Shown here piece by piece: positions 5,795-31,950 of a stretch of DNA of 64,000 nucleotides. Position 1 is the stretch's first letter, and every line of letters begins with the position of its first letter. The DNA lies in NCBI GenBank assembly GCA_949299935.1, contig CASGCE010000032.1, positions 1-64,000 of the forward strand. Reading direction: 5' to 3'. Below the pieces are notes generated by a model. That model searched no databases and had not been told where the DNA came from. It was given only the letters and a program-made list of their open reading frames with translations. This DNA is from an uncultured bacterium. Lineage in GTDB: Bacteria > Cyanobacteriota > Vampirovibrionia > Gastranaerophilales > Gastranaerophilaceae. Position numbers and translations under genes: made by a program.

Positions 5795-5822
5795 TTGCAA
5801 ATAATAAGAAATTTGTTATAAT
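5795..5822 (+). promoter_or_regulatory. Promoter of the phase-variable prepilin, copy 2
   Basis: TTGCAA (5795-5800), a 16-nt spacer and TATAAT (5817-5822) stand before a GGAG (5834-5837) and the ATG at 5845. This places normal expression signals upstream of the poly-G run and supports ATG 5845 as the true start. Confidence 0.75.
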
Positions 5823-5844
5823 GAGTTACAAAAGGAGAAAAGGC

Positions 5845-6659
5845 ATGGATGAAGCTTCAAAGACTTATAACGGGGGGGGGCGACCTCTCTAAATAGAAAT
5901 AGCAAGGGTTTAGGCCTAATTGGAATTGAGTGTTGTAATTTAAAATACGGTTTAAGAAAAGGATTTACGTTAGCGGAGGTTTTGATAACTTTAGCGATAA
6001 TAGGTGTAGTTGCAGCAATGACAATTCCTGTGCTTGTTGCAAACTATCAGCAAAAAACACTGAATAATCAATTTAAAAAAGCATATGCATTGATTAATCA
6101 AGCATTATTATCAACGGTTGGAGAGCTGGGTTATCTACCGCAATGTTATTATAGAGCTTCAGATGGTTATTTTGTTTTTATTTCTAAAGGTGATGCTTGT
6201 GCAGTTCTACGAGATAACTTTTTTTCTAAAATAAAAATTTCAAGAAAATGTGAGGGTAATGCATATGCAGATGGCTGCATACCTGAATATGAGGGAATGG
6301 ATACGGTTGCCAATGCAAATAATCCTGATAAGGAAGTGCCCGAAGGATATGAGAGTTATGGAGACTATGAATCACGCGGTTGTGTTTATTTTAGGAAAAA
6401 TGCAATATTAAACGACCGAACAGTTTATGTATTATCTGACGGAACAATAATAATGCAATATGCTTCTACTATTAACATAATTGCTGTTGATATCAATGGT
6501 ACAAAAGGACCAAATAAGTGGGGGTATGATTTGTTTTCATTCATGTTAATATTTGATGGTTCCAGATTGTATTATGGTGGAGAGGGATGTATGTACTCTG
6601 AAAAGGGTGGTGTTGGTACGTCTGCAATGATTAAACGCCTGAGAAAAAATCAACTTTGA
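5845..6659 (+). CDS. Type IV prepilin-like protein, copy 2, with out-of-frame poly-G tract in the leader
   Basis: ATG 5845 has a good ribosome binding site 7 nt away. It opens MDEASKTYN and enters nine G (5872-5880). With nine G the frame ends at TAA 5890-5892. With ten (or seven) it runs into the pilin frame, which is open from 5871 to 6659. That product would be about 271 residues with a 40-residue leader ending LRKG|F, Glu at +5 and the usual pilin helix. No ATG lies in the pilin frame before the helix; a TTG at 5982 would remove the cleavage site. The body closely resembles copy 1, with GDGTI-like and Cys-containing C-terminal segments conserved. The simplest reading is a phase-variable minor pilin caught OFF; a consensus error in the homopolymer is the alternative. 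Confidence 0.75.
5872..5880 (+). repeat. Poly-G tract (9 G) in prepilin leader
   Basis: Nine G in an AT-rich genome lie between codon 9 of the leader and the pilin frame. One extra G restores the frame. The flanks form C-G9-CGAC, repeated on the + strand at 31904-31917. Confidence 0.85.
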
Positions 6660-31177: not shown

Positions 31178-31950
31178 TTAATCACATTTATCTTTGCCAT
31201 TGATGCTTAAACCATCACATTTAAGGTAATTTAGATTCTCCTTTTTAATAACCCATTCGGTGCAGGAATTTCCGTTTGTGTAGCTTGTACTTGTCAGATT
31301 ACAGTACGTCGGGTCAAATGCGCGCGGAAGCACGTATCCTTGCCTGTTTATAATAAACATGAAAATATCTCTGCCTTTTTGATTTGGTGGATTTTGTGCA
31401 TTTATATCAATAAGTATTGTTCCGCATGCATCAAGAACTTCATATTGCCGTTGACATGTACCCAGTGAGTTTATTGTAACGTATGTACCGTTTAATAATT
31501 TTAGGCCTGTTATTGTCATCATGGTCATACTGTTGTCTGTGGTTCCAATTATGTTCTTTATTTCATATCGGTACGGGAAACATTCATAGATGTCATCACA
31601 TATGAATAAAGTTTTTAAATAAGGGGTGAGCTTATGTAAAATCATTGGAGAAAACGTATAATAATTCTGAGAAGCATTTTCACCTGGATTGCCGGTGAAC
31701 CAAGTATGGACAGGGCCGTTTTCGGCGACTGCCAGGGTCAAGGCATTGTTTAAAATAGTATATGCAGCTTTGACACGTGTAACCGTTTGTTTTTCTTGAT
31801 AACTTGCAATTAATGTAGGTAAAGTCATTACAGCTACAATAGCTATAATAGCTAAGGTTATTAAAACTTCAACCAGAGTAAAAGCCTTGCTTTGGAGGGA
31901 GTTCGGGGGGGGGCGACTATCTGAACCGCTTTCGTATCAATCGTTTCCAT
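31178..31950 (-). CDS. Type IV prepilin-like protein, copy 3, with out-of-frame poly-C tract in the leader
   Basis: ATG 31950 follows AGGAGG and a full promoter. It opens METIDTKAVQIV and enters nine C on the coding strand (31913-31905). With nine C the frame stops at TAA 31863-31861. With ten it joins the pilin frame. The product would be about 257 residues with a 23-residue leader ending QSKA|F and Glu at +5 in FTLVEVLITLAIIAIVAVM. The first ATG already in the pilin frame, at 31828, lies inside the hydrophobic helix and would not give a prepilin. The body differs from copies 1 and 2 and is Cys-rich. As with copy 2, a phase-variable prepilin caught OFF is the best reading, with an assembly error as the alternative. 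Confidence 0.75.
31905..31913 (-). repeat. Homopolymer tract (9 C on coding strand) in prepilin leader
   Basis: Nine G on the + strand, C on the coding strand, lie between leader codons and the pilin frame. One more base restores the frame. The + strand flanks are the same as at 5871-5884 (C-G9-CGAC), in opposite orientation to the gene. Confidence 0.85.

Follow-up and report, generated by a model that had tools for sequence, protein, structure and literature searches.

Most type IV prepilin genes of the genome under study, that of an uncultured Gastranaerophilales bacterium (1.68 Mb, 37 contigs, 34% GC), almost certainly lie behind a one-base frame gate, judging from the arrangement of their reading frames around a nine-base G or C tract. 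What is documented here, at the level of sequence, is how the gate is built, that it is conserved and linked to prepilins, and that selection keeps the frames. These findings suggest a pilin repertoire of about 50 genes that is either switchable between on and off or deliberately frame-shifted. In this group of gut bacteria, uncultured relatives of cyanobacteria, most type IV prepilins would be unreadable straight from the DNA, genome annotation would miss or truncate the gated genes, and the pilus repertoire of the cell would depend on slippage.

Frame gate of prepilin copy 2

The gate is exemplified by prepilin copy 2 (5795–6659, forward strand) of the window, the whole stretch of 64,000 nucleotides that was analysed. 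A sigma-70-like promoter, with TTGCAA (5795–5800) and TATAAT (5817–5822) separated by 16 nucleotides, is followed by the Shine-Dalgarno (SD) core GGAG (5834–5837) and by a mini-ORF (5845–5892) that sets the start frame of the gate. This mini-ORF begins at ATG 5845, runs through nine Gs (5872–5880), and ends at TAA 5890–5892, giving the product MDEASKTYNGGGRPL. The prepilin frame (5880–6659) lies at −1 relative to the mini-ORF and holds no stop through the tract until TGA 6657–6659, encoding a leader, the cleavage motif GFTLAEVLITL (F codon at 5964), and the mature domain. One added G would join the two frames, with a leader of 40 residues. Copy 2 was assigned to the type IV prepilins by the profiles PF07963 (N_methyl, E = 2.3e-6) and TIGR02532, both above cut-off, and its cleavage motif is followed by a hydrophobic helix, as expected for the N-methylation motif GFxxxE. 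No ATG, GTG, or TTG was found in the prepilin frame of copy 2 between the tract and the cleavage site, the earliest being TTG 5982, within the conserved helix, and consequently an ordinary internal start is unavailable to this gene.

The first-pass annotation had described this promoter, the GGAG, ATG 5845, and the nine-G tract, and every detail proved correct on re-reading the sequence. It had also claimed that nine Gs lead from ATG 5845 to the stop at 5890, while ten or seven would lead into a pilin frame open to 6659; the frame reading and the N-methylation profiles bear this out, and in-frame paralogues with ten and with seven Gs were both found. Two of its claims need amendment. Copy 2 was taken to be apparently off, which agrees with nine Gs being out of frame, but nine Gs are what nearly all copies carry, with a uniformity well beyond that of an ordinary contingency repeat, and nine may be the working state, expressed through slippage of RNA polymerase or the ribosome. 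Similarly, the tract does gate a prepilin, although not a single pilin is concerned but about 51 prepilins, with G or C tracts, in a gate that extends to the genus and to other genera.

Two other genes of the window carry related structures. Prepilin copy 1 (138–851, or from 120, forward strand) is preceded by an eight-G tract (64–71), and its upstream region is a related copy of that of copy 2. Its mini-ORF (ATG 37) is shut by TGA 58–60 and the sequence after the tract is altered, while the prepilin itself is still open, so that this gate looks decayed. The third prepilin (31178–31950, reverse strand) represents the C-tract form, with the SD sequence GGAGGA, ATG 31950, nine Cs at 31913–31905, the F codon at 31882, and a stop ending at 31178. 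Its prepilin frame is also at −1, and the shift required is identical to that of the G-tract copies.

Genome-wide distribution of the tracts

For the homopolymer census, the entire genome was retrieved locus by locus and scanned in Python. It holds 55 G or C runs of at least seven bases, 48 of them exactly nine bases long. Among G runs, 20 have six bases, none has seven, two have eight, and 32 have nine; C runs show a matching excess. Around 53 of the 55 are associated with type IV prepilin genes, either within the gene or ahead of it: about 51 lead into an open prepilin frame, and at two more (window position 64 and C34:51) the gate has decayed or a contig end truncates it. The exceptions are the loci C9:13592 and C16:155491. 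Gated genes thus account for about 51 of the roughly 70 prepilins of the genome, and the remaining ~20, free of tracts, begin with short leaders of the usual kind (e.g., MKKAFTLSEV).

Some loci depart from the common arrangement. C9:13592 (G000) holds a ten-G tract and an upstream mini-ORF, MSKTLAKTSSQV, with no prepilin in any frame; several congeners have similar tracts flanked by TACCATACTTT, and two of these, 4% diverged, carry nine and ten Gs, respectively. Two further gates of G000, C14:122559 and C36:54096, are also odd: one has ten Gs and an extra A, which places it in the +1 class, and in the other a T run, possibly a second slippery run, breaks the start frame of the mini-ORF. A replication-strand (Chi- or KOPS-like) meaning of the oriented tracts was rejected, since nearly all of them sit in prepilin genes. 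A scan of viral contigs gave no match to the gate motif.

Gate anatomy and selection on the leaders

An SD-supported start is present in nearly all gated copies. In the G-tract copies of the source genome it lies 15–33 nt 5' of the tract and, wherever both an SD start and a prepilin are present, is in phase with the tract without exception. The start-frame product of the nine-G copies ends a few codons past the tract (…NGGGRLL, then a stop), and the prepilin is open in the −1 frame in nearly all G copies. In the C-tract copies, where the tract reads C9, the shift needed is again −1.

Leader length between tract and cleavage site takes 11 values between 83 and 344 nt, and yet 42 of 43 leaders are congruent modulo 3; some carry unrelated repeat insertions and still keep the frame. 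In the three length classes represented by several copies, the prepilin frame contains no stop, while both other frames are stopped. A test of codon-position variability on the leader gave a weak signal. Leaving aside copies cut by contig ends, 42 of 44 prepilins are full-length, and a median dN/dS of 0.25 over 25 prepilin pairs indicates purifying selection, out-of-frame copies included. Leaders that hold their frame and prepilins that are complete and under purifying selection imply that ribosomes initiated upstream of the tract reach the prepilin at least sometimes. Slippage at the tract is the sole economical way of joining the two frames.

In the main subfamily, a promoter-like sequence (TTGACC, 17 nucleotides, TATAAT) is found between tract and prepilin, so near the next ATG that a leaderless transcript would be possible, and many copies have an ATG shortly 5' of the cleavage motif.

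Tract length and frame in related genomes

The comparison within the genus covered 16 congeners and, by a length-unbiased pattern search, 152 sites, while frames were tallied for 203 tract-gated prepilins from the source genome and related genomes. Related genomes were sampled as one genome per species, length and frame variants being compared among homologous loci. Each of the 16 congeneric genomes, like most other members of the family, carries tracts of at least eight Gs, nine being the common length, and the records with the same motif are mostly labelled as Candidatus Gastranaerophilales MAGs. By length, the 152 congeneric sites comprise 133 with nine Gs, 13 with ten, two with eight, one with eleven, and three interrupted tracts; by frame, 135 belong to the −1 class and three to the +1 class. 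The wider set of 203 divides into 154 prepilins at −1, 26 at +1, and 23 in frame, the latter mostly with ten Gs. Most genomes have in-frame copies, with a maximum of about four per genome within this search.

In the main G-tract family, length is tied to frame: nine Gs place the prepilin at −1 (118 copies, with the start in the same phase), ten or seven place it in frame (17), and eleven, or ten plus an A, place it at +1 (4). In this family, start and prepilin keep their phases in 119 of 140 copies, as fits a slippery run with fixed frames of the programmed −1 type. Paralogue pairs with synonymous divergence from 0.18 to above 1 mostly hold nine Gs on both sides; the near-identical pairs found in the search were too few for an estimate of slippage rate. 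In other genera the distribution is broader: tracts reach 13–14 Gs, and close paralogues differ in length (12 versus 13). Most members of the families with 11–14 Gs, and of one nine-G family (G014), are out of frame by +1 instead. In one congener (G014, loci L302–L313), the nine-G tract and its flank form part of a dispersed repeat, in many cases lacking a start codon or a prepilin, and the tract module seems to have been multiplied there in repeat form.

As in contingency genes, a slippage-prone homopolymer sets the frame inside the coding path, and in-frame and out-of-frame lengths (ten or seven Gs versus nine) are found among homologous loci. However, the broad range of lengths using both out-of-frame states that contingency genes display was not observed among the 152 congeneric sites.

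Pyrimidine arm

The tract is followed by a pyrimidine heptamer, which in copy 2 reads CCTCTCT (5884–5890) and is predicted to pair with G2–G8 of the tract around a GCGA loop. Across 133 copies, each position of the heptamer is a pyrimidine in 95–100%, although the encoded residue changes, and the loop of the predicted pairing is GCGA or GCGT. The tract–pyrimidine hairpin appeared in 34 of 41 folds, with a stability no greater than that of shuffled sequences (mean z −0.5), so that the case for a putative RNA hairpin is made by sequence conservation alone. The start-frame stop at +9 is conserved in 122 of the 133 copies.

Mechanism of frame joining

These features are best accounted for by a one-base frame gate set in the throw-away leader of the prepilin. 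Translation would initiate at the SD-supported start a few codons upstream, pass through the nine-base G or C tract, and normally terminate early. The prepilin would be reached only if the tract gained one base or lost two, or if RNA polymerase or the ribosome made an equivalent slip. Prepilin peptidase would then cut off the joined leader, and the mature pilin would bear no trace of the gate.

Replication slippage, and hence phase variation, has about an even chance of being the main form of this slip. Changes from nine to ten Gs would produce a large phase-variable pilin repertoire, nearly all of it one base away from on, with few members on in any one genome; basal expression of the nine-G genes through leaky slippage at the RNA level or on the ribosome may also occur. 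Replication slippage is favoured because the coupling of length to frame is that predicted for a slipping repeat, and it accounts for the in-frame variants and for the greater length and variability of tracts in other genera; the pili of Bifidobacterium breve offer a close precedent. Nevertheless, several observations argue against it. Congeneric lengths are far narrower than those of the Campylobacter jejuni set, and eight Gs are nearly absent though equally silent; in a free contingency repeat, eight should be as common as nine in the off state. In addition, the genome encodes MutS, which lowers slippage, most diverged paralogue pairs retain nine Gs, and a pure DNA switch has no need of a conserved pyrimidine arm.

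The near-fixed length lends weight to programmed recoding, which is quite possible while falling short of an even chance. Under this explanation, nine Gs or Cs would be the functional length, and a fixed fraction of transcripts or ribosomes would slip at each gate, either by RNA polymerase adding one G or by −1 ribosomal frameshifting on GGG GGG. The result would be weak, even expression throughout the prepilin family, with no need for genetic switching. It would explain why the length nine is near-fixed over more than 130 copies in several species, the skew of the frame classes, the maintenance of the start-frame stop at +9, and an arm that is C or T whatever the residue, as G–C and G–U pairing in RNA permits. 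Purifying selection on out-of-frame copies and a C-tract form with identical length and shift also point in this direction. On the other hand, in-frame copies with ten and seven Gs are tolerated at about 10%, the families with 11–14 Gs are mostly in the +1 frame, out of reach of a −1 ribosomal slip, the fold energies are no better than those of shuffles, and the classic downstream stimulator was not seen. Moreover, transcriptional slippage at G runs is not mentioned in the review searched. It can be proposed only tentatively that the expression of some 50 prepilins per genome depends entirely on a programmed slip of one base, at a G or C run fixed at nine bases and accompanied in the G form by a conserved pyrimidine arm. 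If true, the surface repertoire would be under recoding control rather than a mutational switch, through what would be, to our knowledge, the first recoding signal common to dozens of paralogous surface genes.

It is improbable that the mini-ORF acts as a leader peptide or attenuator and that the prepilin is translated independently of it, whether through reinitiation or by means of an internal start or promoter. The promoter-like sequence of the main subfamily and the ATG near the cleavage motif of many copies would be expected in that case. Nevertheless, 16 of 51 copies (copy 2 and 15 others) have no ATG, GTG, or TTG between tract and cleavage site, just one of the 51 has an SD-supported internal start, and the prepilin frame is open right up to the tract, across unrelated inserts and in leaders of up to ~340 nt. 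Finally, it is very improbable that the real tracts have ten Gs in intact genes, for although homopolymers are error-prone and database poly-G lengths may differ from population values (PMC9187656), nine Gs were obtained in separate assemblies of several species, ten were assembled elsewhere in the same genomes, and 48 runs of nine among 55, on both strands, would not be the outcome of assembly error. The near-fixed length poses a clean question between a mutational switch, as in the replication slippage favoured here, and programmed recoding.

Comparison with known systems

Poly-G frame gates on surface genes are of a known kind. In the literature searched, where most subscription journals were missing, no paper linking Gastranaerophilales with phase variation was found. 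In Neisseria, pilin variation proceeds by gene conversion from silent cassettes. Both cases concern type IV pilins whose expression varies in a bacterium living with a host; unlike in Neisseria, each copy here has its own start region and gate.

The closest parallels are found in systems that rely on homopolymers. In Bifidobacterium breve, a gut commensal, replication slippage at G10/G11 tracts switches clusters for sortase-dependent pili (PMC9187656); as in the present genes, poly-G near the start of a pilus gene splits two frames, and an indel is needed to join them. However, these are Gram-positive sortase pili at two loci, one of which varies strongly in tract length, whereas the source genome has type IV prepilins at about 51 loci, nearly all with nine bases, C tracts as well, and the gate in a cleaved leader. 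The contingency genes of Campylobacter jejuni likewise comprise dozens of G/C tracts of 8–11 bases, on either strand and in surface-structure genes, where a one-base change flips the frame (PMC4965091). Their lengths are widely spread (G8 257, G9 214, G10 431, G11 77, G12 9) over diverse enzymes, while the source genome presents one paralogous family, a single dominant length, and conserved flanks. With genes expressed by programmed frameshifting or transcriptional slippage (reviewed in PMC5009743), the gated prepilins share a conserved slippery run of fixed length, a short start-frame ORF ending just past it, and a long ORF in the shifted frame. In contrast to those genes, the run is G or C rather than A or T, in-frame variants coexist, and the system is known from sequence alone. 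The novelty lies in the gating of a whole family of type IV prepilins within a leader destined for removal, by both G and C tracts of one dominant length, with a conserved complementary arm in the G form.
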